Part shown: piece by piece, positions 568 to 25,820 of the stretch
Position numbering within the stretch: position 1 is the stretch's first letter
How the letters are laid out: each line of letters opens with the position of its first letter
NCBI GenBank assembly: GCA_017439965.1
Contig: JAFSID010000044.1
Location: 1-34,323 of the forward strand
DNA length: 34,323 nt
Reading direction: 5' to 3'
Source: Clostridia bacterium
GTDB taxonomy: Bacteria > Bacillota > Clostridia > Oscillospirales > SIG627
Notes under the pieces: model-generated
What the model saw: only the letters and a program-made list of their open reading frames with translations
Database searches by the model: none
Told to the model about the DNA's origin: nothing
Translations under genes and position numbers: made by a program

Positions 568-596
568 TTGAAGCATCTGAGATTTTATGTTATAAT
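568..596 (+). promoter_or_regulatory. Promoter of the first nuclease gene
   Basis: TTGAAG (568-573), a 17-bp spacer, then TATAAT (591-596) preceded by TGT, an extended -10 element. The start codon at 628 lies about 30 bases downstream with GAGGAG at 612-617. Confidence 0.7.
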
Positions 597-627
597 AATT
601 AAAATACAGTCGAGGAGCGATTTGATA

Positions 628-1770
628 ATGACACATGTTTTTATTGTTGACGAGCATACTTTCAAGATACATTTACAATATATGTTTGCTGGAACAGGAA
701 GAAAAGATCTTATTCCGGACTTCATTGGACGTGCAAAAACTATTACTACTGCTGATTCAGAAGAAAAAACATTTGTATCGATGATATCTGATATATCAAA
801 AATTAGAAAAGATGATTTGATTGCTTTCTATGTTACGGGATGTCAAAAAATCTTTGGCTTTTTTAAAGCTGTAAGTGATCCGTTTTTTAACGATAATCCG
901 CCGGACTACTTAGGCTCAAATTTGGGTAGATATTTACCATTTAGAGTCTTAATTGAACCTCATGAGGTTTTTGCGGATGGCGTTACAGAGCACGAGGCAT
1001 TGGACTGTATCCAAAATGTAACTCATCCGTATGAAATGTGTTGGAGCTTAATATACAGGAAGTTAACTGGACTAAGAGGTTGTTCATTCATAACAGATTT
1101 TGAGTCTAATAGACTCTATCAACAAATCTACACTAAAAATAATGGGATTTGTTTAGGCAACAACAACCAGTTTGATTATGATGCTCAAAATAAATTAATC
1201 AAAACCACAACAAATGTTAATGCTTATGTGGGAACAACAGCAACACCTCTTGATATCTCAGCGAGACTTCAACAAATAACAAGAGCTTATGAAACACATT
1301 TGCAGGCATATGTATCACAATATTATGACAAAGCTCCTTTGCGTGCATTTTTGTGTCCTCAAGCAAATGTAAATTCAATATGGTTTGGTAATGAAGTGGT
1401 GTGCAGTGTTGGAGAACAAAGAATAGATTGCCTACTTATAACTGAAACAACCTCCACTTTTTATATTAGGGTTATTGAATTAAAAGATGAACCCCCAAAG
1501 GCATCATTGATAAATGAACAACTTGATTGGTATTTACAATGGGTAATGCAATATATAACCCCTTTAATGTGCATCAAGCAAGTTGAAATAATTCCTACGA
1601 TTATTGCACCAGAAAACAAAAGAAGCTGTCCTAATAAAACTAATTTTATGAACGCAGCTGCAAACTTTAACAATACAAAGCCGAGTACTACAAACAATAT
1701 TTCTATTGCCAAATTGGAATTCATATCTTTTGACAAGACATCAGGCATTTCTTTCAAAAAAGTTTTCTGA
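628..1770 (+). CDS. PUA/EVE-like + PD-(D/E)XK putative restriction endonuclease
   Basis: A 380-residue protein. The ATG at 628 is preferred over an upstream start at 568 because GAGGAG (612-617) precedes it and the upstream start overlaps the promoter. Around residues 58-90 the segment with KDDLIAFYVTG and IFGFFKAVSDPFF resembles the PUA/EVE-type fold that in other nucleases senses base modification. The C-terminal part (about 255-290) has a PD-(D/E)XK pattern: E263, D267 in RIDCLLI, then E284-L-K286 in VIELKDE. There are no membrane segments. With the methylase 57 bases downstream it probably forms a type II-like restriction-modification pair. The fold assignments come from motif reading; the target and any modification dependence are unknown. 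Confidence 0.6.
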   Translation: MTHVFIVDEHTFKIHLQYMFAGTGRKDLIPDFIGRAKTITTADSEEKTFVSMISDISKIRKDDLIAFYVTGCQKIFGFFKAVSDPFFNDNPPDYLGSNLGRYLPFRVLIEPHEVFADGVTEHEALDCIQNVTHPYEMCWSLIYRKLTGLRGCSFITDFESNRLYQQIYTKNNGICLGNNNQFDYDAQNKLIKTTTNVNAYVGTTATPLDISARLQQITRAYETHLQAYVSQYYDKAPLRAFLCPQANVNSIWFGNEVVCSVGEQRIDCLLITETTSTFYIRVIELKDEPPKASLINEQLDWYLQWVMQYITPLMCIKQVEIIPTIIAPENKRSCPNKTNFMNAAANFNNTKPSTTNNISIAKLEFISFDKTSGISFKKVF

Positions 1771-2932: not shown

Positions 2933-3583
2933 ATGAATCCATTCACAGAAGGAAGCACCCAATATAAAGATTTCGAGGTAATGTCGGATTGCAAATGGCA
3001 TTGCTCAAAGTGTGAATTGTTAAGCGGTCAAGCAAAGACTTGGCAGGTGTGGCGTCAGGAAAAAGGAATACAACTTGATCAGGACGAAGAAGGTCATTGG
3101 TATAAAAAGATTCTATGCCCTAAATGTGGAGTGAAAACAATCCATAGAAAACTTAAATCTACTGAGATTGTAGATATAGACTTGAAAGCTCGCACGGGCA
3201 TTCCTGCTGAAATTGCCAAACGAGCTAAAGCTCTTTACGGATGTGTTGATGAATATACTCTGCGTGTAGAGCCAGCAAATCAGTTGGAGATAGATCATAG
3301 AGTTCCGCAGGTCAGATGGACAACAAATGAAGATGATAACACAAATCTTACGGATGCTCAAATTAGAGAAAAGTTTATGCTTTTGACAAGAGCGAATAAT
3401 CTTTTGAAATCCCGTTTTTGCGAGGATTGCGCAAGAACAGGAAAACGAGCAAAGGGATATAAGGTTATTGAGTTTTGGTACAAGGGCGATGAAAACTACG
3501 ATTGCTCCATCGGTTGTGAGGGATGTTTTTGGTATAATCCAACCAAGTGGAGAGAAGAATTAAATAAAAAGATAAAGAAATAG
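2933..3583 (+). CDS. HNH-type zinc-binding putative restriction endonuclease
   Basis: A 216-residue protein. The nuclease core is of the HNH (beta-beta-alpha-metal) type: LEIDHRVPQVR (118-128) supplies the Asp-His pair (D121, H122), and LLTRANNLLKSRFC (150-163) supplies the Asn and the helix. It is rich in CxxC pairs (C24/C27, C62/C65, C163/C166, C195/C198), indicating structural zinc sites as in several type II HNH restriction enzymes. AAAGG at 2918-2922 precedes the ATG. The next gene starts four bases after the stop, so it is co-transcribed with the methylase. The recognition site cannot be inferred. A homing or mobile-element HNH is possible, but the methylase partner argues for restriction. 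Confidence 0.75.
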   Translation: MNPFTEGSTQYKDFEVMSDCKWHCSKCELLSGQAKTWQVWRQEKGIQLDQDEEGHWYKKILCPKCGVKTIHRKLKSTEIVDIDLKARTGIPAEIAKRAKALYGCVDEYTLRVEPANQLEIDHRVPQVRWTTNEDDNTNLTDAQIREKFMLLTRANNLLKSRFCEDCARTGKRAKGYKVIEFWYKGDENYDCSIGCEGCFWYNPTKWREELNKKIKK

Positions 3584-3587
3584 TGCT

Positions 3588-4376
3588 ATGGCTAAATATA
3601 ACGATTTAGATATGGAGAATTGGAAAGAATACGATGATATTCTAACCGACTCTCTTTGGATTATAGATAAGCGTGATAGTTCAGGCGTGCATAATGCAAG
3701 CTATCACGGAAACTTTGTGCCTCAGATACCGAATCAGTTATTTAGAAGATACACAAAAAAAGGCGACTGGATACTTGATCCTTTTTCTGGTGGTGGAACA
3801 TCGTTGATTGAAGCACAGCGACTTGGTCGAAACGCAATCGGTGTAGAGCTTCAAGAAGAAGTTGCGAGAGCTTCTGTTGAACTCCTAAAACAAGAAAAGA
3901 ATCCCGACACGAGAGGGACGATATTAATCGGAGATAGCCGCACTGCAGACATCGGAGAAAAACTTCAAGCATTTGGTGTCAATAAGGTGCAGTTCGTGAT
4001 ATTTCACCCACCCTATTGGGATATTATCAAGTTCAGCGAAAACGAACAAGACCTATCTAACTGTGCGACAATTAATGAGTTCAACGAATCGTTTGGGCAA
4101 GTAATAGATAACACTTTGCAGCATCTCGAAAAGAACAGATACTGTGCTTGTGTTATAGGTGATAAGTATGCCAATAGTGAAATTGTTCCGCTTGGCTTTT
4201 ATTGCTTGAATCTCTTTATGATGCGTGGGCTGAAATTGAAGGCAATCTTGGTTAAAAACTTTGAAGAAACCAAGGGAAAAGCTAATCAAAAAGCGATTTG
4301 GAGATATCGCGCTTTAGCAAGTGATTTTTATCTATTCAAGCACGAGTATATATTTGTGTTTAAGAAGGTTAAATAG
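3588..4376 (+). CDS. N4/N6 DNA methyltransferase (motif order X-I-IV)
   Basis: A 262-residue amino-methyltransferase for DNA. Motif I is DPFSGGGT (64-71), followed by the acidic end of strand 2 in GVEL. The segment before it (HGNFVPQIPNQLFRRYT, 40-56) looks like motif X. The catalytic motif IV is HPPYW (140-144), with His where Asp, Ser or Asn is usual. The order X-I-IV differs from beta-class enzymes (IV-X-I), so this is a circular variant. Whether it modifies adenine or cytosine is not decidable here. It sits between two nuclease genes, four bases from the first and directly abutting the second, and presumably protects against one or both. Confidence 0.8.
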   Translation: MAKYNDLDMENWKEYDDILTDSLWIIDKRDSSGVHNASYHGNFVPQIPNQLFRRYTKKGDWILDPFSGGGTSLIEAQRLGRNAIGVELQEEVARASVELLKQEKNPDTRGTILIGDSRTADIGEKLQAFGVNKVQFVIFHPPYWDIIKFSENEQDLSNCATINEFNESFGQVIDNTLQHLEKNRYCACVIGDKYANSEIVPLGFYCLNLFMMRGLKLKAILVKNFEETKGKANQKAIWRYRALASDFYLFKHEYIFVFKKVK

Positions 4377-5123
4377 GTGAAATGTATGAATAATGAAGTG
4401 GTCGGAATTTCTGCTGAGTTGGCAATAGCAGATGTTTTTAATTTGTATGTTAACCCAAGATATAGAGAACGCGGAGATGAATACATCAAAGACAGTCTTA
4501 TGAATTGTGTCGCATATGCGTTTAAAGAAGAAAACTTGCCAACTCCGATTAGGCATGTAGCCGAAAATAAAAGTTTGATTGATTTCGAATTGGAGGATGG
4601 AAAGACACTATCCGTAAAAACAAACAAGAGAAAATTAGATAAAGTAGCACCGCAAAGAATCGGGCAGCCAACAAGCGATACATACTTTGAATACCTATCC
4701 GAAGCAATGGATTTTGATTTACAGAAAGAACTTGAACTTCTTGGATTGCCGGATGCCTATGAAACACGCCGTAGTCTCTTCAAATATTTTTCGCGTACTC
4801 ATATAGCTGATTTATTGCCTTTGTATTGGGAACATCTGTTTGAATGTGATTATTATATTCACTTTTATAATGTCGTTGATGGATTTGATAACCCAACTGG
4901 CAGAGCAAGATATTTGGTGTTGAAAGATATCCCAACCTCACCGAGATGGGATGTAACCCAAATTACATTTACAAAAACATTGGAAGGTTGGAGAGAAAGC
5001 TGTACCGTTAAGTATATGGGAACTTCTATTGGAGAATTTCAAGTACACAACAATAGGGATTGCCTGAAATTTCGATTCAATATTAGAGGGATCTTATATT
5101 TGCTGAATAATCATTTAATTTGA
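4377..5123 (+). CDS. Putative PD-(D/E)XK-like restriction endonuclease
   Basis: A 248-residue protein whose family I do not recognise with certainty. An N-terminal helix ISAELAIADVF (11-21) carries a conserved-looking Glu (E14). Then LIDFELEDGKTLSVKTNK (67-84) gives an Asp (D69) followed by a strand with S79-x-K81, a plausible variant of the D...(D/E/S)xK active site. KVAPQRIGQPT (89-99) would suit DNA contact. The start may be GTG at 4377 (AGAAGG upstream) or ATG at 4386. It begins right after the methylase stop, so it belongs to the same operon. Restriction is the best guess from motif and context. Confidence 0.55.
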   Translation: MKCMNNEVVGISAELAIADVFNLYVNPRYRERGDEYIKDSLMNCVAYAFKEENLPTPIRHVAENKSLIDFELEDGKTLSVKTNKRKLDKVAPQRIGQPTSDTYFEYLSEAMDFDLQKELELLGLPDAYETRRSLFKYFSRTHIADLLPLYWEHLFECDYYIHFYNVVDGFDNPTGRARYLVLKDIPTSPRWDVTQITFTKTLEGWRESCTVKYMGTSIGEFQVHNNRDCLKFRFNIRGILYLLNNHLI

Positions 5124-5191: not shown

Positions 5192-5451
5192 ATGGTACTA
5201 CAAGCGTTGAAAAACATGTATCCAGAGCAAGTGAAAAGGTACTTAATTCGGTTATGAAAGATCTCGAAAAATGCCGTGGCAAGAATATGAGTGCAGAAGG
5301 ACTTGCTGATTTGATAGGCAAACTCATAACAGCAAATACAATTGAAGAAGCATTAAAGCAAAATACTGAGGACGATTCAGAGCCGAGCAAATTCGGTAAT
5401 GAGTCGTCCTTTGCTACGCAAGAGATACGAGTAAGAAGATCAGAGCCTTAG
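5192..5451 (+). pseudogene. Small frameshifted reading frame in front of the recombinase remnant
   Basis: A textbook ribosome site (AGGAGGTAA, 5179-5187) precedes ATG 5192, but that frame stops after 21 codons at 5257. The neighbouring frame is open from 5188 to 5451 and reads as a natural-looking soluble protein (TSVEKHVSRASEKVLNSV, then LADLIGKLITANTIEEAL). One lost base just after the ATG would explain this. The last 15 or so residues of the open frame overlap recombinase sequence out of frame, so the 3' end is also artificial. It is probably a decayed small accessory gene of the element; its function is unknown. Confidence 0.4.
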
Positions 5452-6632
5452 TGAAAGCGAAAGCAGAGCGTGGCGAGAGAGTTGGAACGATTGTTCCTTA
5501 CGGTTACAAGCGCGATCCCGAACACAAAGGTCATCTCCTTGTCAACGAGGAACCCGCACCAATCGTCCGAATGATATTCTCGCTGTGTGCCAAAGGTACT
5601 GGACCGAGAAATATTGCAAATATCCTGCGTGACAAGAAAATACTGAAGCCTACCGCCTATCGTTATCAAACGGAAGGTGTATACGGAACACGCACGGATA
5701 CCGAAACGCCATACGGTTGGAACGATAGAACGGTTGCAGGTATCCTTGATAATGAAATCTATCTTGGTCATACTGTTAACTGTCGCACCACGGTGGTATC
5801 CTACAAGGACAAACGCAAGAAGGATCGTCCAGAAAGTGAATGGTATCGTGTTGAAAATACTCACGAAGCTATCATTGACAAAACAACTTGGGAGCTTGCC
5901 CAAGTAGTTCGTCAAGGCAAACGCAGACGGACAGCGATGGGTGGAATCGATAAGTATAGCGGTCTATTATACTGCGCGGATTGCAATTCAAAGCTGTACT
6001 TTATTCGAGGAACAACACTCAAAACAGATGCCTACGGATTTATTTGTAGCCGATACAGAAAGCACATGGGCGAGGAACAATGCACGCCTCACTCCATCAG
6101 GGCAAAGGTGCTTGATGAGATCATCCTTGAAGAAATCCGCAAGGTAACCTACTACGCACGCGCTCAAACCCGTGAGCTCGTCAGCTTTATTAATCAAAAA
6201 AGCTCTGCGGAAAACCGCAGAGAGTTAAATGCGAGGATGGTGGAGCTTGCGAGTCTTGAAAAGTGCAACAACGAGCTGCACGCTATGTTCAGGCGACTCT
6301 ATGAGGACAATGTTCTCGGCAAGGTCACCAATGAACAGTTCCGTATGCTCTCCGACGGTTACAACACCGAGCAAAGAGAAATCACCGAGCGGCTTCCAAT
6401 AGTAAAGCAAGAGATTGAAGATCTGAAAGTGGCGGCAACCAATGTCGAGAGATTTGTGGATATTGCAAACAAGTACACAGATTTAAGGGAGCTGACTCCC
6501 GAAGTGCTTCGCACATTCATAGAGCGAATTATTATCCACGAAAGAACGGCAAAGCACAGCAAAACCGCAACGCAGCAGATCGACATCTACTTCCGCTATA
6601 TCGGAAAACTTGCACCCGAACAAGTTGCCTAA
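5403..6632 (+). pseudogene. Large serine recombinase lacking its catalytic domain
   Basis: The readable part begins near YARDTSKKIRALVKAKAERG, a segment that in intact large serine recombinases directly follows the roughly 140-residue catalytic domain. The frame is blocked by a TGA at 5400-5402, and the resolvase domain with its nucleophilic Ser is absent. What remains (about 393 codons from GTG 5451) includes the recombinase domain (GTGPRNIANILR), the zinc ribbon (GLLYCADC, with partner cysteines about 20 and 35 residues on) and a C-terminal coiled-coil region. It may still be translated from 5451 but cannot cut DNA. A deletion around 5400-5412 fused it to the small gene upstream. Confidence 0.8.
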
Positions 6633-6752: not shown

Positions 6753-9383
6753 TTAATTTTTAATCGTTTTGCCCGTAGTACCGAAGGTAAGATGAACGTT
6801 TACGGGACAAGCGTTAAGAGACGCCTGACAGCCGACGGACGCCTTGAATTTGCCCTTGGGTACGGTAAGAGTGCCCTGATGCCAGATATTCTTTTCGTTG
6901 CCGTAGCGGTCGATGACCTTAGCGCTCTTGCCGTCCCACTCGATAAAGTCGGTTGACATAAGCTCGCACTCGAACATTACGGTCTCCTTTCCGACGGTGA
7001 CGGTGGGATTCTTAACGACGTTGTAAACCTGACGGCAAGCGGTGATGCTCGACGCATAAACGCCCTCAACGTCACCCGATACCATAAGCTCAATGCTGGT
7101 AAGTCTGTCCATATTATGACCCGAGCGTCCGATTGAATAGAAGCCCTGATTGTCCTCAAAGCCAAGCTCGAGTCTCTCGCCGTTGTCAGCCTCTAGAAGA
7201 ACGAAGTCACGCCAGCCCTCAAAGTCGGTATCAACGACGAAAAGTCCGTAGCCGTGCTCACTCTGTGATGCGCTGAGGGTCTTGATGCCGATAGCACCCT
7301 TCTTGCCGTTGCCCTTGACTCTTATCTTATACGCAAGATTATTGACGGTATTAAGCTCAGCACCGAAGGTAAACTTCTTTACCTGGTCTGCAACGGGCTT
7401 ATTTTCGTCAAGAGGAAGGAGAACGAGAGGCTCGTCACCGAGAGTGGACATACAGTTTTCAATGCGGATAAAGGGAGTCTGCTTCTTGAAGGGATTTTCA
7501 AACTCAACGGTATTACGCTTTTCGTCCTGAATATCGAAAAGTCTCTTGGTCTTGTAATTCTTCTCCTCAAATACGTACTTGTTGCCCTTCTTGACAACCG
7601 CAACCTCGTGTCCGCAGTTCTTTGCCATTTCAATGGTTTCGGGCTTGAAGTAGTCGGACTTGCGGAGGTCGGAGTAAACCTTATAGCGTGCAACATTTCT
7701 GCGGTAGCCTGCGTAACGCTCAAGCACAGCCCGAGAGGTGCCGTTGAAAACGTTGGAGTAGTTATAAAGGACGGCAAGCATACCGAGGTGGTCAATGGAA
7801 TCCCAGTGATGATAACGGGTATGCTGGTTTCCAGGGTACTTGTCGGTGGTCGGGAAGAAGTTGTACCAGCCGAGAGTTGCGGTGTGGTGATTGCGGGTAG
7901 CAATCGCCTGATGCTTATGATGAAGTCCGTTCCAGTATCTGTAAGCACGGAAGGGAGTATCCCAAGCGCCCATTCTCGCACGTGAAGCCCAGATTGACGG
8001 ATACATCGTCGAATACTCAATAATGGGATAGGTTTCGCAGTTCTTCATAATTTCGTGTACGAAGATTGCGGCATAGTACCAGCCCTCGTGCTTGGTGCAA
8101 TGACGTCCGATTCCGTCAAGTGCATCAAGATATATCATACCGAAGCCGCCCTTATTATAAGCCTCGGCGGTATTTCTGGCAATCTGCTTGAAGAGGTCGC
8201 TCGTAACTGCAGGAGCAAAGAGGTTGAAGCAGCCTCTTAAGTGATACATAGGCTCGCCCTTCTTGTGAGATACAGCCTTAGTACCTGCAAAGCCACGCTG
8301 AAGCACCTTAAAGCCGTCGGGAGCGTTGGTATAGTATATAATCTCCTCGCCTACGAGAATATAGGGAAGGTTTGAGGTAAAGAAGCCGTAATAATCCGAA
8401 AGCTCGGCGGTAGACTCAACAGACGGAACGAAGTCCGCATCTGCCGAAATATCCTCGGCAAGAGTGAAGGTCTCGTTGCGGTCGAGCTGACTCTGCCACT
8501 TGGGGTCGGAAAGAATTTCGTGACAGCCGGGATTGATATAATATGCATAGGTGTGAAGACCCGCCTTCATACCGTTTTCGGCAAGAGGCTCTGCAACGTG
8601 CTTTTTAAAGCCCTCGTGGTTTTCGTAATGAGCCTGCTTGAAGTCGCCCTGACGGTAGGTTGCACCGCCCTGATGGATATCGACCTGGTCAACGCCAATC
8701 TGCTTGAAGAACTCGATATTGTTCTTGATATAATCGGGAGCGGCGCTGTAAATAATCGTATAGTCACCGAAATTGTCCTTACAATCACGTCCCCAAGGAC
8801 CTGCGGTCTTGGAAACGATACCCTTTTCGGAGTCAATCTTCTCGCAGAGGGTCTTGAGAGACTCGCGGAGAATGATTTCGGGAGCGGTGGTAACGCCAAC
8901 CTTAGCACCCAAAACGCCTCCGAGGTGAGGATAAGCGCAAGCCTTGAAGTCTCCGCTTATTCCGCTGGGATAATTGACAGTACGGGTGTTGACGGTCATG
9001 GGCACCTCGGCAATGCGAAGAGCGTTGATATCCTCCTTGTCGCACTCAAACTTGAAGCCTGCAAAACGGATATAGAACGCCTCGGGCTTGAGAGCCTCAC
9101 CTACCACCTCACAGATGAAGTGGTCGTCAAACGCCTCAAGCTTAACATACGCCGAGCCAAGCTCGGTCTCAAAGCCTGCAATACCTCCATTAAAGGACAT
9201 ACTTTTTGCGGGAAATTCAACCTCGTCCTTGTCGTAGGCAGAAAAGAAGCTCTGCTTTTCAGCGGTTATCTCCTTGTCTGCAACAAGGTCGAACACCTTA
9301 ACGGTTGCATCCTTCTTGGAGATTTCGATTTTGAGACAGTTGGTTGACAGAATAAGAGCGGTCTTGTTATCCTTGATACTCAT
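6753..9383 (-). CDS. P1: putative cytoplasmic TIM-barrel glycoside hydrolase, divergent member
   Basis: An 876-residue protein, the last gene of the array. Layout follows the family: N-terminal beta-sandwich (about 1-190), barrel (about 190-560), C-terminal jelly-roll (about 665-876). Shared motifs are YRQGDF (243-248), GLHTYA, RGFAGTKAVSHKKG (363-376), MIYLDALDG (417-424; D420 and D423 are candidate catalytic or metal residues) and RARMGAWD (468-475). It is the odd member: position 459 is Thr (EYSTM) where all other copies have Asp, and the DGT..H motif is DGIGRH. There is no signal peptide. GGAGG precedes the start, 12 bases after the P2 stop, so it is co-transcribed with P2. The glycosidase role is inferred from fold-like motifs and neighbours. 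Confidence 0.65.
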   Translation of the reverse strand: MSIKDNKTALILSTNCLKIEISKKDATVKVFDLVADKEITAEKQSFFSAYDKDEVEFPAKSMSFNGGIAGFETELGSAYVKLEAFDDHFICEVVGEALKPEAFYIRFAGFKFECDKEDINALRIAEVPMTVNTRTVNYPSGISGDFKACAYPHLGGVLGAKVGVTTAPEIILRESLKTLCEKIDSEKGIVSKTAGPWGRDCKDNFGDYTIIYSAAPDYIKNNIEFFKQIGVDQVDIHQGGATYRQGDFKQAHYENHEGFKKHVAEPLAENGMKAGLHTYAYYINPGCHEILSDPKWQSQLDRNETFTLAEDISADADFVPSVESTAELSDYYGFFTSNLPYILVGEEIIYYTNAPDGFKVLQRGFAGTKAVSHKKGEPMYHLRGCFNLFAPAVTSDLFKQIARNTAEAYNKGGFGMIYLDALDGIGRHCTKHEGWYYAAIFVHEIMKNCETYPIIEYSTMYPSIWASRARMGAWDTPFRAYRYWNGLHHKHQAIATRNHHTATLGWYNFFPTTDKYPGNQHTRYHHWDSIDHLGMLAVLYNYSNVFNGTSRAVLERYAGYRRNVARYKVYSDLRKSDYFKPETIEMAKNCGHEVAVVKKGNKYVFEEKNYKTKRLFDIQDEKRNTVEFENPFKKQTPFIRIENCMSTLGDEPLVLLPLDENKPVADQVKKFTFGAELNTVNNLAYKIRVKGNGKKGAIGIKTLSASQSEHGYGLFVVDTDFEGWRDFVLLEADNGERLELGFEDNQGFYSIGRSGHNMDRLTSIELMVSGDVEGVYASSITACRQVYNVVKNPTVTVGKETVMFECELMSTDFIEWDGKSAKVIDRYGNEKNIWHQGTLTVPKGKFKASVGCQASLNACPVNVHLTFGTTGKTIKN

Positions 9384-9395
9384 AATAAGCCTCCG

Positions 9396-12011
9396 TTATT
9401 TTATTTCCTTACCCGTCGTACCCATCGTGAGATAGAGGTTGACGGGACAGTTGTTAAGTGATGACTGATAACCGACGGTCACACGGTACTTACCCTTGGG
9501 CACGGTAAGGCTACCCTGGAACCATATCGGCTTTTCGTTAGCGTAGCGGTCAATGACCTTGGCGGTCTTGCCGTCCCACTCGATAAAGTCGGTAGACATA
9601 AGCTCGCACTCGAACATTACGGTCTCTTTTCCGACGGTGACGGTGGGATTCTTGAGAACGTTATATACCTGACGGCAGGCGTTGACGCTTGACATACGCA
9701 CGCCCTCAACGTCTCCCGTTGCAAGAAGCTCAATTGAGCTGATGCGGTCCATATTGAGACCCGAGCGGTAGACGGGGTACATATGAAGTCCTTCCTCGAA
9801 AAGCTCGGGACGGTCGCCGTTGTCTGCCTCAAGAAGCACGAAGTCACGCCAGCCCTCAAAGTCGGTGTCTATAAGATAAAGTCCGTAGCCATTTTCACTG
9901 TTCGTTCCGCCCTTGAGTCGAAGCGCGACGGTACCCTTTTTGCCGTTGCCCTTGACTCTGACGGTCATGGCAAGATTGTTGATAAGATTTATTTCCGAGC
10001 CAAGCTCGTGTAAACGGAGCTGTTCGGTTACCTCCTGCTCCTCGTTCATGGGAAGAAGGAGCATCGGGTCACGTCCGAGGGTTGACATACAGTGCTCTAT
10101 TCTCACGAAGGGAGTCTGCTTTTTAAAGGGGTTTTCATAGGTGAGAGTGTTACGGCTCTCCTCGTTGATGCCGTAATATCTCTTGATATCGTAGTTCTTT
10201 TCAACGAGTGCGTATTTGCCGTGTCCCTTATCGGCAACCGCAAGCTCGTGCGGATTCTGCCTTGCCTTTTCAAGTATTTCCTCCGAGAAGTAACGGTCAC
10301 GGCGGAGCTTGTCGTAAAACTTGTAAATATCGAGATTACGCTTCCAGCCGGGAATCTTCAAATTGTAGTTGGAGTAAGCGTTGGAATAATTATAAAGGAT
10401 TGCAAGAGTACCCATAAACTCGATTGCATCGGTATGGAAATACTTGGTGTGCTGATTTCCCGGGTACTTATCCGTGATAGGATAGAGGGATACCCATCCA
10501 AGCGTTGAGTTGTAAAGGTGACGGGTTGCAGCCTTGTTATACTTATGGTGAATACGGCAGAAGTTCTTGAGTCCTCTGAAGGGAATATCCCAAGCGCCCA
10601 TTCTCGAACGGCTTGCCCATACTGACGGAGGCATATCCGCAAACTCAATAATTGGGTCGTCGTGGCAGTTCTTTATAACCTCGTGGGTAAACTTTGCAAT
10701 ATAGTAGGGGCGTTCCTCAATGCGACAGTGACGGCGCGTACCGTCTACCGCATCGAGATATATCATAGTGTAACCGCCTCTGTTGTAGTTCTCGGCGGTC
10801 TGACGCGCTATCTTTAAGAAAAGCTCGCTTCCGTGCTTGGGAGCAAAGAAATAGAAGCAGCCGTCAATGTGATAGATCACGGCGTCCTTCTTATGCTCTG
10901 CGGGAGTCGTACCGCAAGCACCTCGCTCGGTGACCGTAAAGCCGTTTGGCGCATTCTTATACTTTATAATCTCCTCGTCAATGAGAACGTAGGGCATATT
11001 GGTTGAGAAGAAGCCGTAATAATCCGAAAGCTCGGCGGTGGACTCAACCGTCGGCACGAAATCAGCCTCTGCCGAAATATTCTCGGAAAGGGTAAACTCC
11101 TCAAGGGTGGATAACTGCTTCTGCCACTTGGGGTCTGAAAGAAGCCCGTGACACTTGGGGTCAATATACTGACCGTAGGTATGGAAGCCCGTCTGTATTC
11201 CGTGCTTCGCAAGGCGGTCGGTAACCCTCGCCTTGAAATCCTCGTGTCCGTCGTACAGCATATATTCAAAATCGCCCTGACGGAAGGTGTTTATGTTATT
11301 CTGCACTATATCAAGGTGGTCGATTCCGAGATATTCAAGAGCGTCTATCTGGTCGTCGAGATACTCCTGAGAGGCAAACCAGGAGAGCATATAACTTCCC
11401 TGAACTCTCTCGTTTTCAAAAGCCCAAGGACCTGCGCTTTTCATAACGATTCCCTTTTCGGGGTCTATCTCCGAGCATATCTCCTGAAGCACTGCGCGAC
11501 GGCTCTTTTCGGAAATTACCGCATAGCCGTAGCGTGCACCCTTTGCACCCTCAAGGTGCTCGTAGGTTTTGGACAAAGTTCTCTTATCATATCCGTCGGG
11601 GAACAAAACGGGGTCAACGGAAACCGTCATTGCAACGCCCACCGCTCTCGGTCCGTCCTCGTCGTCGGGGTCGTATTCGTAGGAGGCATTACCCATATAA
11701 ATACAGTAAACACCCTCGGGAAGAGCGGTCAGCACCTCGAAGATAAAGAAATTATCTCTTACCGTAACGCCGATTTTAACCTCTCCCTTCTCGGTTTTGA
11801 GAAAGAACGTGTCATTCTCAAAATCAAGAGAGAGGATTTTAAATTCCTGCCAGCTTTCATCGGTCAGAGCAAAAAAGCTCTTCCTCTCACCCGTGATATC
11901 AACGCCGTCCGCCGTCACGACCGACAGAAGAGTCGCATCACTGCGGGAAAGCTCAAGCTTCACTGTTTTGTTTTCAAGTGTTATTGCTTTCTTCGTAACC
12001 TTAACAGCCAT
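9396..12011 (-). CDS. P2: putative cytoplasmic TIM-barrel glycoside hydrolase
   Basis: An 871-residue protein. The N-terminal domain and barrel are closest by eye to P3 and P4 (TLLSVVTADGVDITGE, 27-42). Barrel motifs are FRQGDF (243-248), MIYLDAVDGTRRH (416-428), IIEFADM (454-460, E456 and D459) and RSRMGAWD (468-475). The C-terminal half is a mosaic: GLHMYPVYRSGLNMDR, IWFQG and SSLNNCPVN match P6, whereas ISSIELLATGDVEGVRMSSV matches P4. There is no signal peptide. It has its own promoter (12073-12101) and a GGAGAAGG-like ribosome site, and reads on into P1. The substrate is unknown. Confidence 0.68.
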   Translation of the reverse strand: MAVKVTKKAITLENKTVKLELSRSDATLLSVVTADGVDITGERKSFFALTDESWQEFKILSLDFENDTFFLKTEKGEVKIGVTVRDNFFIFEVLTALPEGVYCIYMGNASYEYDPDDEDGPRAVGVAMTVSVDPVLFPDGYDKRTLSKTYEHLEGAKGARYGYAVISEKSRRAVLQEICSEIDPEKGIVMKSAGPWAFENERVQGSYMLSWFASQEYLDDQIDALEYLGIDHLDIVQNNINTFRQGDFEYMLYDGHEDFKARVTDRLAKHGIQTGFHTYGQYIDPKCHGLLSDPKWQKQLSTLEEFTLSENISAEADFVPTVESTAELSDYYGFFSTNMPYVLIDEEIIKYKNAPNGFTVTERGACGTTPAEHKKDAVIYHIDGCFYFFAPKHGSELFLKIARQTAENYNRGGYTMIYLDAVDGTRRHCRIEERPYYIAKFTHEVIKNCHDDPIIEFADMPPSVWASRSRMGAWDIPFRGLKNFCRIHHKYNKAATRHLYNSTLGWVSLYPITDKYPGNQHTKYFHTDAIEFMGTLAILYNYSNAYSNYNLKIPGWKRNLDIYKFYDKLRRDRYFSEEILEKARQNPHELAVADKGHGKYALVEKNYDIKRYYGINEESRNTLTYENPFKKQTPFVRIEHCMSTLGRDPMLLLPMNEEQEVTEQLRLHELGSEINLINNLAMTVRVKGNGKKGTVALRLKGGTNSENGYGLYLIDTDFEGWRDFVLLEADNGDRPELFEEGLHMYPVYRSGLNMDRISSIELLATGDVEGVRMSSVNACRQVYNVLKNPTVTVGKETVMFECELMSTDFIEWDGKTAKVIDRYANEKPIWFQGSLTVPKGKYRVTVGYQSSLNNCPVNLYLTMGTTGKEIK

Positions 12012-12072
12012 AAATCCTTCTCCATTTGTATCGTTTTACATCTTATTTTAAGGTATTTTTCACCTCACGGTT

Positions 12073-12101
12073 AGTCTACCATAAAACAAAGCCGAGGTCA
12101 A
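12073..12101 (-). promoter_or_regulatory. Promoter of P2-P1
   Basis: On the minus strand: TTGACC (12101-12096), a 17-bp spacer, then TAGACT (12078-12073) preceded by TGG (extended -10). Just downstream is CCGTGAGGTG (12061-12070). The promoter is almost identical to that in front of P4. Confidence 0.7.
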
Positions 12102-12168
12102 CAAATTATAAAAATTTTGCTTTTTTCAGCAGATTACACAATTTAAACGGCACTCCTTTGTCAAAAAA

Positions 12169-12194
12169 AGAAAAACCGCCGAAGCGGTTTTTCT
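12169..12194 (-). terminator. Terminator of P3 with UUCG loop
   Basis: On the minus strand an 11-bp stem ending in ACCGC closes a TTCG tetraloop (12180-12183), and the right arm runs into TTTTTCTTTTTTT. A near copy stands behind P5. Confidence 0.88.
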
Positions 12195-12215
12195 GAAAAC
12201 ACAAAAAATACTGTT

Positions 12216-14828
12216 TTATTTTATGATTTTTCCGTCAGTTCCCATCGTCACGATTGCGTTAACGGGACAGCCGTTAAGAGACACAGCCGAAAGGCTTGCC
12301 TTGTATTTACCCTTGGGTACGGTGAGAGTGCCCGAGAAGTAAATCTCCTTTTCGTTAGCGTAGCGGTCGATGACCAGAGCACGCTTGCCGTCCCACTCGA
12401 TAAAGTCGGTGGACTGAAGCTCACACTCAAACATAACCGACTCACCGCCTACCGTGAGGGTAGGATTCTTGATGACGTTATATATCTGAGGGCACGCCTT
12501 TATATCGGACATACGGACTCCCTCAACGTCACCCGTTGCAAGCACCTCGATAAAGCCGAAGCGGAACATATTGGGAAGGAAGTGATGTATCTGATACATA
12601 TGAACGCCCTGCTCAAAAAGCTCGACACGGTCACCGTTGTCAACCTCACAAAGCACGAAGTCACGCCAGCCCTCAAAATCGGTATCAACGGTCAAAAGCC
12701 CGTATCCGCTCTCGTTACCCTTACCCGACTTAAGACGAATTCCGACGGCACCCTTACGGCCGTTACCCTTGATACGTACGGTAACGGTAAGTCTTTTGGT
12801 AATGTCAAAATCTGCGCCGAGATAATGAGAGCGGAGCTGCTCGGAAACGTCACGGTTCTCGTCCATAGGCAATAGGATAAGCGGGTCGTGTCCGAGGGTG
12901 GAGAGACAATGCTCTATTCTTACGAAGGGAGTCTGCTTCTTGAAGGGGTTTTCAAAGGACTGCTCCCGACGGTCCTCCTCCTCAATACCGTAAAGTCTCT
13001 TTCTGTCGTAATTCTTTTCAACAAAGGCATACTTGCCCTTGCCTTTATCAACTACTGCAAGCTCGTGGGGATTCTCTCTTGCCTTTTCAATAATTTCCTC
13101 GGAGAAATATTTTTCACGGCGAAGTCTTTCATAAAAATGGTAACGGTCAATATTACGTCTCCAGCCTCTGACCTTAAAGTTAAAAAGACCGTAGGCGATG
13201 GAATAATTGTAAAGAATGGAGAGTGCGCCGAGATGGTCTATCGCGTCACGGTGGAAATAGTGAATGAAGTGGTTACCTGGATAGTAATCTGCGGTGGGAT
13301 AGAGAGCCATCCATCCGAGAGTCGCATTGTAAAGGTGGCGGAGTGCCCCCTTGTTTGAAGCGTGATGGATATTGATAAATCTCTTGTAGGCTCTGAGCGG
13401 CATATCCCAAGCGCCCATTCTCGAACGGCTTGCCCAGATGGATGCGGGCATATCCGCAAACTCTAAAATAGGCTCGTCGTGACAGTGCTTTATTATCTCG
13501 TGAGTGAATTTTGCAATATAATAGGGACGCTCCTCAAGTCTGCAATGTTGCTTCGTGCCGTCTACCGCATCGAGATATATCATCGTATATCCGCCCTTGT
13601 TGTAGTTCTCGGCAGTCTTGCGGGCAACCTCAAGGAAAAGCTCACTACCGTGTCTTGGCACTAAATAATAGAAATATCCGTCGAGAAGATAAACCGTTGA
13701 GCCCTTCTTATGCTCGGCGGGAGTCGTACCGCAGGCACCGCGCTCGGCAACCTTAAAGCCGTCGGGAGCATTCTTATACATAATTATTTCCCCGTCAATC
13801 AAAACGTAAGGAATATTCTTTGTAAAGAGGCCGTAGTAATCCGAAAGGTCGGCGGTGGATTCAACGGTCGGGATAAAGTCGGACTCGGCTGAAACGTCCT
13901 GCAAAAGCTCATACTCTCCGCGAACGGCAAGCTGCTTCTGCCATTTGGGGTCCGAAAGAAGCCCGTGGCACAGGGGGTCGATATACTGTCCGTAGGTATG
14001 AAGGCTCGCCTGTATTCCGCGCTCTGTAAGGCGGTCGGTGACCCTCGCCTTGAAATCCTCGTGTCCGTCGTAATGGACGTATTCAAAGTCACCCTGACGG
14101 AAGGACTTTTTGTTATTCTGGGTTATGTCAAGGTGGTCTACCTTAAGGTAGGCGATATCGTCAAGCGTTCTGTCAAGATACTCCTGCGAGCAATCGGTGG
14201 TAACTATATAGCTTCCCTGAACTCGCTCGTTTTCATCCGACCAGGGACCTGCCGTTTTCATAACGATGCCCTTTTCGGAGTCAATCTCCGAGCAAAGCTT
14301 ACGAAGCTCCGCACGTCTGCTCTTTTCGGGAATTACCGCATAGCCGTAGCGTGCTCCCTTTGCTCCCTCAAGATGCTCAAAGGTTCTGGAAATGGTTTTC
14401 TTATCGTAGCCGTCGGGAAAATACTCGGGGTCAACGGTAACCGTCATTGCAACGCCTACCGCTCTCGGTCCGTTCATATCCTCAATATCGTATTCGTAGG
14501 AGGCGTTACCCATATAGAGACAGTAAGCGCCCTTGGGAAGAGAGGTCAGCACCTCGAAAATAAAGTAGGTGTCTCTTACGGTAACGGCAATTTTAACCTC
14601 ACCAAGCTCGGTCTTGAGAATAAGCGTGTCACCCTCCGAATCAAGCCCCTCGTTTTTAAACTCCTGCCAGCTCTCGTCGGTCAGGGCAAAAAAGCTTTTC
14701 TTCTCGCCCGTGATATCAACGCCGTCCGCCGTCACAACCGACAAAAGACTCGCATCCTTGCGCGAAAGCTCAAGCGTTACCGTTTCGTTTTTCAGTAATA
14801 TAGCTTTATTCGTAGCAGTAATACCCAT
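12216..14828 (-). CDS. P3: putative cytoplasmic TIM-barrel glycoside hydrolase
   Basis: An 870-residue protein, visibly the close relative of P2 and P4. Its numbering is collinear with P2: FRQGDF (243-248), MIYLDAVDGTKQH (416-428), FADM (457-460) and RSRMGAWD (468-475). Differences include SLHTYG in the barrel and QDVSAESDFIP where others have EDISADADF. The C-terminal SLSAVSLNGCPVN type is shared with P4 and P5 rather than with P2. There is no signal peptide or membrane segment. It has its own promoter (14877-14905) and terminator (12169-12194), so it can be a single-gene unit. The function is inferred from the family layout. Confidence 0.68.
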   Translation of the reverse strand: MGITATNKAILLKNETVTLELSRKDASLLSVVTADGVDITGEKKSFFALTDESWQEFKNEGLDSEGDTLILKTELGEVKIAVTVRDTYFIFEVLTSLPKGAYCLYMGNASYEYDIEDMNGPRAVGVAMTVTVDPEYFPDGYDKKTISRTFEHLEGAKGARYGYAVIPEKSRRAELRKLCSEIDSEKGIVMKTAGPWSDENERVQGSYIVTTDCSQEYLDRTLDDIAYLKVDHLDITQNNKKSFRQGDFEYVHYDGHEDFKARVTDRLTERGIQASLHTYGQYIDPLCHGLLSDPKWQKQLAVRGEYELLQDVSAESDFIPTVESTADLSDYYGLFTKNIPYVLIDGEIIMYKNAPDGFKVAERGACGTTPAEHKKGSTVYLLDGYFYYLVPRHGSELFLEVARKTAENYNKGGYTMIYLDAVDGTKQHCRLEERPYYIAKFTHEIIKHCHDEPILEFADMPASIWASRSRMGAWDMPLRAYKRFINIHHASNKGALRHLYNATLGWMALYPTADYYPGNHFIHYFHRDAIDHLGALSILYNYSIAYGLFNFKVRGWRRNIDRYHFYERLRREKYFSEEIIEKARENPHELAVVDKGKGKYAFVEKNYDRKRLYGIEEEDRREQSFENPFKKQTPFVRIEHCLSTLGHDPLILLPMDENRDVSEQLRSHYLGADFDITKRLTVTVRIKGNGRKGAVGIRLKSGKGNESGYGLLTVDTDFEGWRDFVLCEVDNGDRVELFEQGVHMYQIHHFLPNMFRFGFIEVLATGDVEGVRMSDIKACPQIYNVIKNPTLTVGGESVMFECELQSTDFIEWDGKRALVIDRYANEKEIYFSGTLTVPKGKYKASLSAVSLNGCPVNAIVTMGTDGKIIK

Positions 14829-14876
14829 AGTGTGTTCCTCGTTTTTGTGATATTAGGCTCTTTGCACCTCACGGTC

Positions 14877-14905
14877 ATTCTAACACACAAAATTTCAAAA
14901 AGCAA
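14877..14905 (-). promoter_or_regulatory. Promoter of P3
   Basis: On the minus strand: TTGCTT (14905-14900), 17 bases, TAGAAT (14882-14877). Downstream lies CCGTGAGGTG (14865-14874), the same ten bases found at the P2 promoter. The -35 box is weaker than those of P2 and P4. Confidence 0.55.
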
Positions 14906-14962
14906 TCAGTTTAAGGCGGTGAGTCACTAATGTACAAAAAGAAGTCTCTATTGTACAAAAAC

Positions 14963-17575
14963 TCACTTTATCTCCTTGCCCTCCGTACCGACAGTCAGAA
15001 TTGCGTTAACGGTACAGCCGTTGAGAGAGACAGCCGAAAGGCTTGCCTTGTATTTTCCCTTGGGTACGGTGAGAGAGCCTGAGAAGTAAATCTCCTTTTC
15101 GTTAGCGTAGCGGTCAATGACTACGGCGCGCTTTCCGTCCCACTCTATAAGGTCTGTGGATTGAAGCTCGCACTCAAACATAACCGACTCACCGCCTACC
15201 GTGAGGGTAGGATTCTTTATGACGTTATATACCTGACGGCAGGCATTGACGCTTGACATACGGACTCCCTCAACGTCACCCGCTGCAAGAAGCTCAATCG
15301 AGCTGATGCGGTCCATTGCAGGCATAAAGCGGTGTATCAGGAACGGATGAAGCCCTTTCTCGAAAAGCTCGGGACGGTCGCCGTCATCAGCCTCAAGAAG
15401 CACGAAGTCGCGCCAGCCCTCAAAGTCTGTATCAATGGTATAAAGGCCGTAATTCTCGGTATTACCCTTATCGCATCCGAGACGGAGCGCAAGCGTTCCG
15501 TTTTTTCCGTTGCCCTTGACCCTGACGGTCATAGCAAGGTTATTCATCAGGCTTAAGGTGTCCCCGAGCTGATGTACTCTGAGCTGCTCGGAGACCTCCT
15601 GCTCCTCGTTCATCGGAAGAAGAAGCATAGGGTCACGGCGAAGGGTTGACATACAGTTTTCAATTCTCACGAAGGGAGTCTGCTTTTTAAAGGGGTTTTC
15701 GAGAAGAACGGTGTGACGGGCATCCTCTTCAATGCCGTAAAGCCTCTTTCTGTCGTAATTCTTTTCAACAATCGAATATTTGCCGTTTCCGTTATCGGCA
15801 ACTGCAAGCTCGTGAGGATTTGCTCTTGCCCATTCGAGAAGCTTCTCCGAGAAGTAATGCTCTCGGCGGAGCTTATCGTAAAGCTTATATATTGCGAGAT
15901 TGCGAAGGACTCCCGCATATCTCATTTCATAATTCACATACGCCATTGAATAGTTATAGAGGATGGCAAGCATACCCATATGCTCAACCGAATCTCTGTG
16001 AAAATACTGAACGTACTGATTGCCCGGATAATAGTCGGCGTTGGGATAGAGAGACATCCATCCGAGCGTGGAATTATAAAACTGGCGCGTATACTTTGCG
16101 TTATATTCGTGGTGTATTTGATTGAAGCGTTTATAGCCTCTCATCGGTAAATCCCAAGCACCCATTCGCGCACGGCTTGCCCAGATTGACGCAGGCATAT
16201 CCGCAAACTCTAAAATGGGCTCGTCGTGACAGTTCTTTATAATCTCGTGTGTAAACTTTGCAATATAGTAGAATGTCTCCTCGGGGCGACAGTGCTGACG
16301 GGTACCGTCTATCGCATCGATATATATCATAGTATAACCGCCCTTGTTATATGCCTCGGCGGTATTGTGAGCCACCCTTAAAAACAGCTCACTGCCCAGC
16401 TTGGGTACGAGATAATAGAAAAAGCCGTCAAGGTGGTAAATTTTCTCTCCGCTCTTATGCTCAGCGGGAGTCGTACCGCAAGCGCCACGCTCGGCAACCT
16501 TAAAGCCGTTGGGAGCGTTAGTATACTTAATAATTTCATTACCCACAAGAATATACGGCATATTCGTTGAGAAGAAGCCGTAAAAGCTTGAAAGCTCGGC
16601 GGTAGACTCGGCAGTGGGAACAAAGTCTCCGTCCGCTGAAATATCCTCGGAAAGCGTAAACTCCTCACGGGTGGATAACTGCTTCTGATACTCGGGGTCG
16701 GAAAGAAGTCCGAAGCATTGAGGATGTATATACTCAGCATAGGTATGAAGTGCAGTCTGTATTCCGTGCTCTGCAAGGCGGTCGGAGACCCTCTTCTTGA
16801 AATCCTCATCCGAGTCGTAGCAGGCATACTCAAAGTCGCCCTGACGGAAGGTGTTAACGTTATTCTGATGGAAATCAACGTGGTCGATTCCAAAGGCTTT
16901 GAAGGTCTCAAGATTTTTGTCCAGAAACTCAGGCTCGGCGTAATGCACTATCATATAGCCTCCCTGCACCTTCTCGTTATCCCACGACCAAGGACCTGCG
17001 CTTTTCATAACGATGCCCTTTTCGGAGTCTATCTCTAAGCATATATCCTGAAGCACCGTCTTTCTGCTCTTTTCGGGAATTACCGCATAGCCGTAGCGCG
17101 CACCGAGAGCTCCCTCAAGATGCTCATAAATTTTGGCAACCGTCTTTTTTTCATAGCCGTCGGGGAAGTATTTGGGGTCAACGGCAACCGTCATTGCGAC
17201 ACCTACCGCTCTCGGTCCGTTTTCACTGTCGAGGTCGTATTCGTAGGAGGCGTTTGCCATATAAAGACAGTAAGCTCCCTCGGGAAGAGAGGTCAGCACC
17301 TCGAAAATAAAGAAGGCGTCCTTTACCGTAACGGCAATTTTAACCTCGCCGAGCTCGGTCTTGAGGATAAGCGTGTCCCCCTCCAGATCGAGTCCCTCGT
17401 TTTTAAACTCCTGCCAGCTCTCGTCGGTCAGGGCAAAAAAGTTTTTCTGCTCGCCCGTGATATCAACGCCGTCCGCCGTCACGACAGACAGAAGAGTCGC
17501 ATCCTTGCGTGAAAGCTCAAGCCTCACCGTTTTGTTTTCAAGCGTTATTGCTTTTTTCGTAGCTGTAATAGCCAT
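14963..17575 (-). CDS. P4: putative cytoplasmic TIM-barrel glycoside hydrolase
   Basis: An 870-residue protein from the ATG at 17575. A frame open to 17608 would add 11 residues, but the alignment with P2 and P3 (MAITATKKAITLEN) and GAGGAAAAG just upstream support 17575. Motifs: FRQGDF, LHTYAEYIHP, MIYIDAIDGTRQH (about 416-428), FADM, RARMGAWD. The substrate-side loop after the barrel is slightly different (FYGFF without the usual SDY). The C-terminal jelly-roll is of the SLSAVSLNGC type. There is no signal peptide. It has its own promoter (17629-17657). No terminator is obvious behind it, so it may read through into P3. Confidence 0.68.
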   Translation of the reverse strand: MAITATKKAITLENKTVRLELSRKDATLLSVVTADGVDITGEQKNFFALTDESWQEFKNEGLDLEGDTLILKTELGEVKIAVTVKDAFFIFEVLTSLPEGAYCLYMANASYEYDLDSENGPRAVGVAMTVAVDPKYFPDGYEKKTVAKIYEHLEGALGARYGYAVIPEKSRKTVLQDICLEIDSEKGIVMKSAGPWSWDNEKVQGGYMIVHYAEPEFLDKNLETFKAFGIDHVDFHQNNVNTFRQGDFEYACYDSDEDFKKRVSDRLAEHGIQTALHTYAEYIHPQCFGLLSDPEYQKQLSTREEFTLSEDISADGDFVPTAESTAELSSFYGFFSTNMPYILVGNEIIKYTNAPNGFKVAERGACGTTPAEHKSGEKIYHLDGFFYYLVPKLGSELFLRVAHNTAEAYNKGGYTMIYIDAIDGTRQHCRPEETFYYIAKFTHEIIKNCHDEPILEFADMPASIWASRARMGAWDLPMRGYKRFNQIHHEYNAKYTRQFYNSTLGWMSLYPNADYYPGNQYVQYFHRDSVEHMGMLAILYNYSMAYVNYEMRYAGVLRNLAIYKLYDKLRREHYFSEKLLEWARANPHELAVADNGNGKYSIVEKNYDRKRLYGIEEDARHTVLLENPFKKQTPFVRIENCMSTLRRDPMLLLPMNEEQEVSEQLRVHQLGDTLSLMNNLAMTVRVKGNGKNGTLALRLGCDKGNTENYGLYTIDTDFEGWRDFVLLEADDGDRPELFEKGLHPFLIHRFMPAMDRISSIELLAAGDVEGVRMSSVNACRQVYNVIKNPTLTVGGESVMFECELQSTDLIEWDGKRAVVIDRYANEKEIYFSGSLTVPKGKYKASLSAVSLNGCTVNAILTVGTEGKEIK

Positions 17576-17628
17576 AGTCTTTTCCTCATTCATATCATAA
17601 TTTATCATAATTTAAAGTGTTTAAGATA

Positions 17629-17657
17629 AGTCTATCATAAAACAATGCCAAGGTCAA
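17629..17657 (-). promoter_or_regulatory. Promoter of P4
   Basis: On the minus strand: TTGACC (17657-17652), 17 bases, TAGACT (17634-17629), preceded by TGA. Box sequences and spacer match the P2 promoter nearly base for base, but the CCGTGAGGTG downstream element is absent. Confidence 0.7.
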
Positions 17658-17724
17658 CAAATTATTATTTTTTTGTTTTTTTCGGCAGATTACACATTTT
17701 AAAACGCGTTTTTTGTGAAAGAAA

Positions 17725-17746
17725 GAAAACCGCCGAAGCGGTTTTC
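17725..17746 (-). terminator. Terminator of P5 with UUCG loop
   Basis: On the minus strand a 9-bp stem ending in ACCGC closes a TTCG loop (17734-17737) and is followed by a T-rich stretch (CTTTCTTTC). The core is the same as in the terminator behind P3. Confidence 0.8.
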
Positions 17747-17760
17747 CTTGATTCACAGCA

Positions 17761-20382: not shown

Positions 20383-20475
20383 ATGCTCCTCCGATTCGGT
20401 CGTATTCCATTAATATAATACACATATTTGCAGGCTTTTTATATAATTCTTTATTCTAAAAATATCACAAATCTA

Positions 20476-20509
20476 TTAAAGAGGCTTGTCTTACGATAAG
20501 CCTCTTTAA
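20476..20509 (-). terminator. Probable terminator of P6
   Basis: A perfect 12-bp stem (20476-20487 with 20498-20509, TTAAAGAGGCTT on the left) is extended by three further pairs to a TTAC loop. The following U-run is short, so efficiency is uncertain. It lies 11 bases past the P6 stop. Confidence 0.65.
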
Positions 20510-20519
20510 AACAAAATGG

Positions 20520-23141: not shown

Positions 23142-23152
23142 ATAACCCTCCG

Positions 23153-25777: not shown

Positions 25778-25820
25778 ATTACGCCTCCTGCAAGGTTGTG
25801 GTTTCACTTATTACAAGGCT

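Follow-up and report, generated by a model that had tools for sequence, protein, structure and literature searches.

An EVE domain joined to a NucS-like nuclease and accompanied by DNA methylases: a candidate CATG restriction enzyme

Introduction

The gene at positions 628 to 1770 (forward strand) of the window, the 34,323-nucleotide stretch of Clostridia DNA analysed here, encodes a 380-residue protein which, on family alignment and a predicted structure, is an N-terminal EVE (PUA-superfamily) domain joined to a C-terminal NucS/EndoMS-like PD-(D/E)XK nuclease (EVE-NucS). EVE–nuclease fusions are by default annotated as type IV enzymes, which attack modified DNA. EVE-NucS travels with host methylases across distant bacteria and thus probably cuts unmarked foreign DNA, not only modified DNA, which would be an uncommon role for such a reader. 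We judge it slightly better than an even chance that the genes form a type II-like CATG restriction–modification system in which EVE-NucS is the restriction enzyme, blocked by the host mark. The more specific proposal, that the EVE domain is a target reader for unmodified CATG which the host methyl mark shuts out, is tentative and in our view falls somewhat short of an even chance; it would reverse the logic of a modified-base sensor, with the reader joined to a mismatch-repair-type nuclease fold and found in six phyla, including recoded Gracilibacteria in which TGA encodes glycine.

Results and discussion

The gene is contained in an open frame spanning 568 to 1770 (+). We take the ATG at 628 as the likely start: it follows a GAGGAG ribosome site, the relatives begin there too, and the upstream TTG (568) falls within a −35/−10-like pair. 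This promoter-like pair (568 to 596, +; TTGAAG-17-TATAAT, with TG before the −10) is assigned by its position 5′ of the gene. The EVE, D12 and HNH genes are each directly preceded by a pair of this kind, the total of such pairs in the region being no commoner than in shuffled sequences.

Searched by itself, the window protein had no Pfam or PADLOC match at E ≤ 1, and NCBIfam offered nothing of note. The alignment of the protein with 27 relatives (28 rows) placed it: Pfam EVE matches 22 of the 28 members (best 3.9e-5) and NucS_C matches three, with no ICEA match among the family matches of the 28. Searched as a profile against the PDB, the alignment matched the EVE proteins PH1033 (1.5e-4) and MJECL36 (5.7e-4); NucS and EndoMS were below significance in the same search. 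Folding of the single sequence gave pLDDT 36 and was set aside, while modelling from all 28 aligned rows reached pLDDT 89.6 and pTM 0.89. Residues 1 to 168 of this model match PH1033 (Z 13.5, 126 aligned, 2.1 Å) and residues 1 to 175 the EVE domain of VcaM4I (Z 11.0); residues 221 to 374 match NucS (Z 10.5) and residues 216 to 372 EndoMS (Z 10.2). By this comparison the EVE domain (residues 1 to about 172) stands where NucS has its own N-terminal domain, which is missing, and the NucS-like PD-(D/E)XK domain covers residues 216 to 374 or thereabouts. Glu-222, Glu-256, Asp-267, the E284xK286 motif and Q298xxxY302 are invariant in all 28 proteins; the D...ExK...QxxxY pattern is typical of NucS. 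A preliminary description of this gene, made from the sequence, had proposed a PUA/EVE-type reader followed by a PD-(D/E)XK nuclease and had offered structure prediction as the check, with the idea to be abandoned if no such fold appeared. The predicted structure has this fold, and the family profiles agree with both assignments. A viral fold search returned weak matches only, and families missing from the fold search were not counted as evidence. Conservation is higher in the EVE half than in the nuclease half in all 27 relatives, pointing to a ligand that stays the same.

Few genomes carry the window protein: a search of 391 from the class found it in G000 and G622, with a broken copy in G253. 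A pattern scan of genome contigs yielded nothing with the window protein alone and worked once a relative was aligned. The alignment search of contigs located 32 EVE-NucS loci, which by their record titles come from Clostridia, Bacilli, Mucispirillum, Melainabacteria, Elusimicrobia, Bacteroidales and Gracilibacteria and span six phyla. No relatives were present in the plasmid records, phage records or viral contigs searched. A match in G716 (E 7e-4) was dropped because it is antisense to a solute-binding protein gene. Two loci (L018 and L039) run off contig ends, leaving 30 usable; there are close kin among the loci (L012 to L014; L016, L019 and L023), and G830 (locus L036) is taken to be G622 again on the basis of identical EVE sequences. 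In the Gracilibacteria locus L040 (7995 to 10976, +) the EVE-NucS, HNH, D12 and N6_N4 genes are present only with TGA read as glycine (code 25), and the locus counts given here include it read in that code. A candidate DUF262-like gene, judged from its start, sits between members of the set in L040.

In the window, four further genes of the set follow EVE-NucS on the same strand. The first encodes a D12-class N6-adenine DNA methylase (1828 to 2826; MNYIGSK...DPPYN; Pfam D12, 6.7e-48), which the CATG depletion in carriers makes the candidate CATG methylase. It is followed by an HNH nuclease of subtype A (2933 to 3583) whose C-terminal half matches ICEA, of the NlaIII/IceA family (Pfam, 1.4e-11), and by a second methylase, of the N6_N4 family (3588 to 4376; motif HPPYWD; Pfam, 2.2e-20; PADLOC MTase_II, 5.4e-114); alignment agrees with all three assignments. 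The last (4377 to 5123) is a small restriction-endonuclease-like protein (PADLOC REase_II, 1.5e-18), a rare member of the set which also occurs in L004, where it occupies the usual place of the HNH gene. All 18 relatives of the window HNH match ICEA, and alignment separates two HNH subtypes with different N-termini. The adjoining adenine methylase noted in the preliminary description is real, but the picture of a nuclease paired with its own methylase was too narrow, the HNH, second methylase and endonuclease-like genes having gone unlisted.

Beyond the set, a serine recombinase gene (5451 to 6632, +; Recombinase, zinc-ribbon and DUF4368, without a catalytic resolvase domain in the same frame) is a mobile-element remnant adjoining the restriction genes. 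Seven tandem paralogs of 870 to 884 residues, with mutual identity of 49–73%, occupy 6753 to 25807 (−), and the two that were scanned have no Pfam match. After them come two paralogs of about 640 residues (63% identical, one with DUF4838) and then GH39, galactokinase and galT-like genes; together these make up a sugar-use cluster in which an unknown family has been strongly amplified. The window has no tRNA gene according to ARAGORN.

Across the 30 usable loci, a D12 and/or N6_N4 methylase adjoins EVE-NucS in 28, an ICEA-type HNH gene is present in 24, and all four genes occur together in 21. L024 and L031 have no methylases in the locus and both elsewhere in the genome. Ten EVE-NucS genomes were checked, among which G830 appears to duplicate G622; D12 is present in nine and N6_N4 in eight, with at least one of the two in every genome. 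No EVE-NucS gene lacking a relative of either methylase was found among the loci and genomes examined (L018 and L039 not being judged). A type IV enzyme has no linked or needed cognate methylase, which does not describe EVE-NucS (28 of 30 in the locus, two in the genome); linkage of the restriction gene to methylases, as in type II systems, does describe these loci. EVE-NucS is also the sole nuclease seen in three loci: the L034 operon (N4-EVE-D12, with ATGA overlaps), the L038 operon (N4-EVE), and L028, where the EVE gene is followed by a terminator-like hairpin and D12, with no HNH remnant in the gap. The HNH partner was not found in five of the ten EVE-NucS genomes searched, which are drafts, nor was any ICEA family member found in those five (eight draft genomes searched).

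These results bear on the strongest alternative, in which EVE-NucS is a type IV addition: the methylases would serve the HNH (and other nucleases), EVE-NucS would cut modified phage DNA that the HNH cannot, and the host marks would not be ligands of its pocket. EVE domains of nucleases have been described as modified-cytosine readers (PMC7641849 and work on VcaM4I), and HNH and methylases occur without EVE-NucS in loci L083, L084 and L085. In G828 an intact EVE gene accompanies an N4 methylase gene with a stop and a D12 gene with a frameshift; this is odd for an active CATG nuclease and is the most awkward case for the reading we favour, though an assembly fault may be the cause. We nevertheless consider the type IV addition unlikely, at perhaps one chance in four. 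EVE-NucS is joined to methylases in the HNH-less operons L034, L038 and L028 and keeps them in genomes with no detected HNH or ICEA; its reader half is the better conserved, unlike an arms-race sensor; and a relative of a methylase was always found with it in the material examined. The preliminary description had offered two options, a reader blocked by the host mark or one that senses another modification. The former fits better than the latter, since the association of the gene with the methylases holds even in some cases where no HNH partner was found. Also in favour of a blocked restriction enzyme, the broken EVE genes in L004, L025 and L037 adjoin open methylase frames.

Pairwise distances of D12 and N6_N4 correlate closely (r 0.89, n = 21); the two methylases co-evolve. 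The correlation of the EVE and nuclease halves with N6_N4 is moderate (r 0.41 and 0.47, n = 19), and HNH distances track nothing (r 0.06–0.18). These Mantel tests were made without L013 and L019 (near-duplicates), L018, L039 and L040 (incomplete), and the split genes of L023 (HNH), L015 and L030 (both N4); the EVE comparisons, and these only, also leave out the broken EVE genes of L004, L025 and L037. They tell against a joint complex of HNH and EVE-NucS in which each nuclease would cut its own strand or its own kind of substrate. The two genes are adjacent or overlap in many loci (L010, L011, L016 and L036), which would suit a subunit or helper. HNH distance, however, follows neither the EVE half (r 0.06) nor the nuclease half (r 0.13; n = 20), both HNH subtypes accompany similar EVE proteins, and HNH and EVE-NucS each occur without the other; we regard such a complex as improbable. 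It looks as if one methylase pair guards against a changing set of nucleases.

A protein of about 208 residues with a D...DVKLT pattern lies beside the HNH or EVE gene in L029 (7361 to 7987), L033 (295 to 912), L030 (2647 to 3288) and L084 (8131 to 8820); it has no PADLOC match in the two scanned and is possibly a further nuclease of the set. In the HNH and N6_N4 locus L083, a helix-turn-helix protein with C5-cytosine-methylase matches (9581 to 10855, −) replaces D12. Relatives of the N6_N4 methylase in L087, L088, L089, L090, L091 and L041 adjoin a Dam-like methylase and a DpnII-like gene, as judged from their sequences. Contig 63 of G000 carries such a set, and GATC is depleted in G000. Matches of the methylases in Fusobacterium, Haloferax and other plasmids were dropped, as they are parts of different restriction systems or lie on their own.

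Words of four to six nucleotides were compared, observed against maximal-order Markov expectation, between 25 carriers of EVE-NucS and D12 and 30 non-carrier samples. Of 1,921 words, CATG shows the strongest depletion (p 7e-7; the next word has p 1.5e-4), with a median ratio of 0.47 in carriers and 0.83 in controls, where the controls come from one class and the carriers from several phyla. When only the 17 controls with GC below 0.46 are used, CATG is still first of 1,896 words, but its p of 4.7e-4 loses significance on correction, and the test is weakened accordingly. The carriers leave out L013, L014, L018, L019, L023 and L039 (duplicates or contig ends), L036 (the same as G622), L038 (no D12), L040 (recoded) and G253/L004 (broken EVE); L025 and L037 were retained despite their broken EVE genes, and one control stretch was omitted, G717 (1.4 kb, read as N). 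The test was limited to EVE carriers because the G530 and G725 loci are without EVE-NucS and G530 has a C5 methylase in place of D12.

Among carriers with D12 only, the observed and expected CATG counts are 9/177 in G622, 1/124 in G627 and 2/176 in G827, where no HNH or ICEA was found. G627 has HNH and no detected EVE-NucS, so depletion can come from the HNH. The CATG ratio of G000 is 0.21, and those of five genus-mates are 0.30–0.69. Depletion is weak or absent in G829 (0.83; no D12 found), G253 and L025 (0.83 and 0.87; EVE broken in both) and L040 (31 against 38 expected), and these four count against the CATG reading. As other candidate sites, CCTTC, GGATG, GAAGA and GTAC were rejected, none being strongly depleted in G000; an asymmetric site, which two methylases might imply, is not needed given the CATG result. 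ICEA membership of the HNH fits the same site, since titles cited in PMC3261200 and PMC2749054 identify IceA1 as a CATG enzyme and hpyIM as a CATG methylase. We note that one passage of PMC3261200 gives the NlaIII site as CTAG, although a reference in the same paper has CATG.

In the favoured reading, a CATG system with a methylation-blocked EVE-NucS, the D12 methylase would mark the adenine of CATG as self and the N6_N4 methylase would act as a helper. The EVE domain would dock on the target, probably with a base flipped out into the pocket in the manner of EVE and SRA domains, a step we infer from VcaM4I, and the NucS-like domain would cut DNA that lacks the self mark. In the presence of an ICEA-type HNH, one protection would serve both nucleases; without the HNH, EVE-NucS would restrict alone. 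An EVE domain that instead recognises the host mark itself (m6A or m4C), with cutting licensed by incomplete or strand-asymmetric marking, is very improbable: the domain does resemble YTH m6A readers (Z up to 10.0) and a second methylase is usually present, but the EVE and YTH folds are alike in general, a nuclease that cut at the host mark would kill the cell unless some further switch held it back, and D12-only systems exist.

If EVE-NucS is a methylation-blocked CATG enzyme, the default type IV rule is unsafe and EVE can be an ordinary target reader. It would also be a new enzyme for cutting CATG, with no relation to NlaIII, and its loci a natural set in which one methylase pair stands against interchangeable nucleases (HNH, EVE-NucS and small PD-(D/E)XK-like types).

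Comparison with known systems

Our literature search, in which most subscription papers were outside scope, found no published description of the EVE-NucS, D12, N6_N4 and ICEA set. Bell, Wolf and Koonin (2020; PMC7641849) named EVE-PD(D/E)XK fusions, of the same core architecture as EVE-NucS, as putative type IV enzymes; the available part of that paper treats them as such and does not mention the set. VcaM4I likewise joins an N-terminal EVE domain to a nuclease, and Trp-82, Tyr-130, Pro-24 and Glu-15 are given as residues of its base-binding pocket. Its nuclease is however HNH and it reportedly prefers 5mC/5hmC DNA, whereas EVE-NucS is NucS-like and travels with methylases; this preference counts against a CATG reading of EVE-NucS. 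The mismatch endonuclease NucS/EndoMS shares the C-terminal nuclease fold and catalytic pattern, but EVE-NucS has EVE in place of the NucS N-terminal domain and shows no sign of a repair role. The NlaIII and HpyI (IceA1 with M.HpyI) CATG systems resemble these loci in the ICEA-family HNH (18/18) and in CATG depletion; EVE-NucS differs in not being an ICEA protein and in that it can be the only nuclease seen. LlaJI, a McrB-related NTPase with a B3 domain, is unlike EVE-NucS in being NTPase-driven, in its B3 domain and in its asymmetric site, yet according to PMC12707154 it offers a precedent in which relatives of modification-dependent parts act on an unmodified site, together with two methylases.
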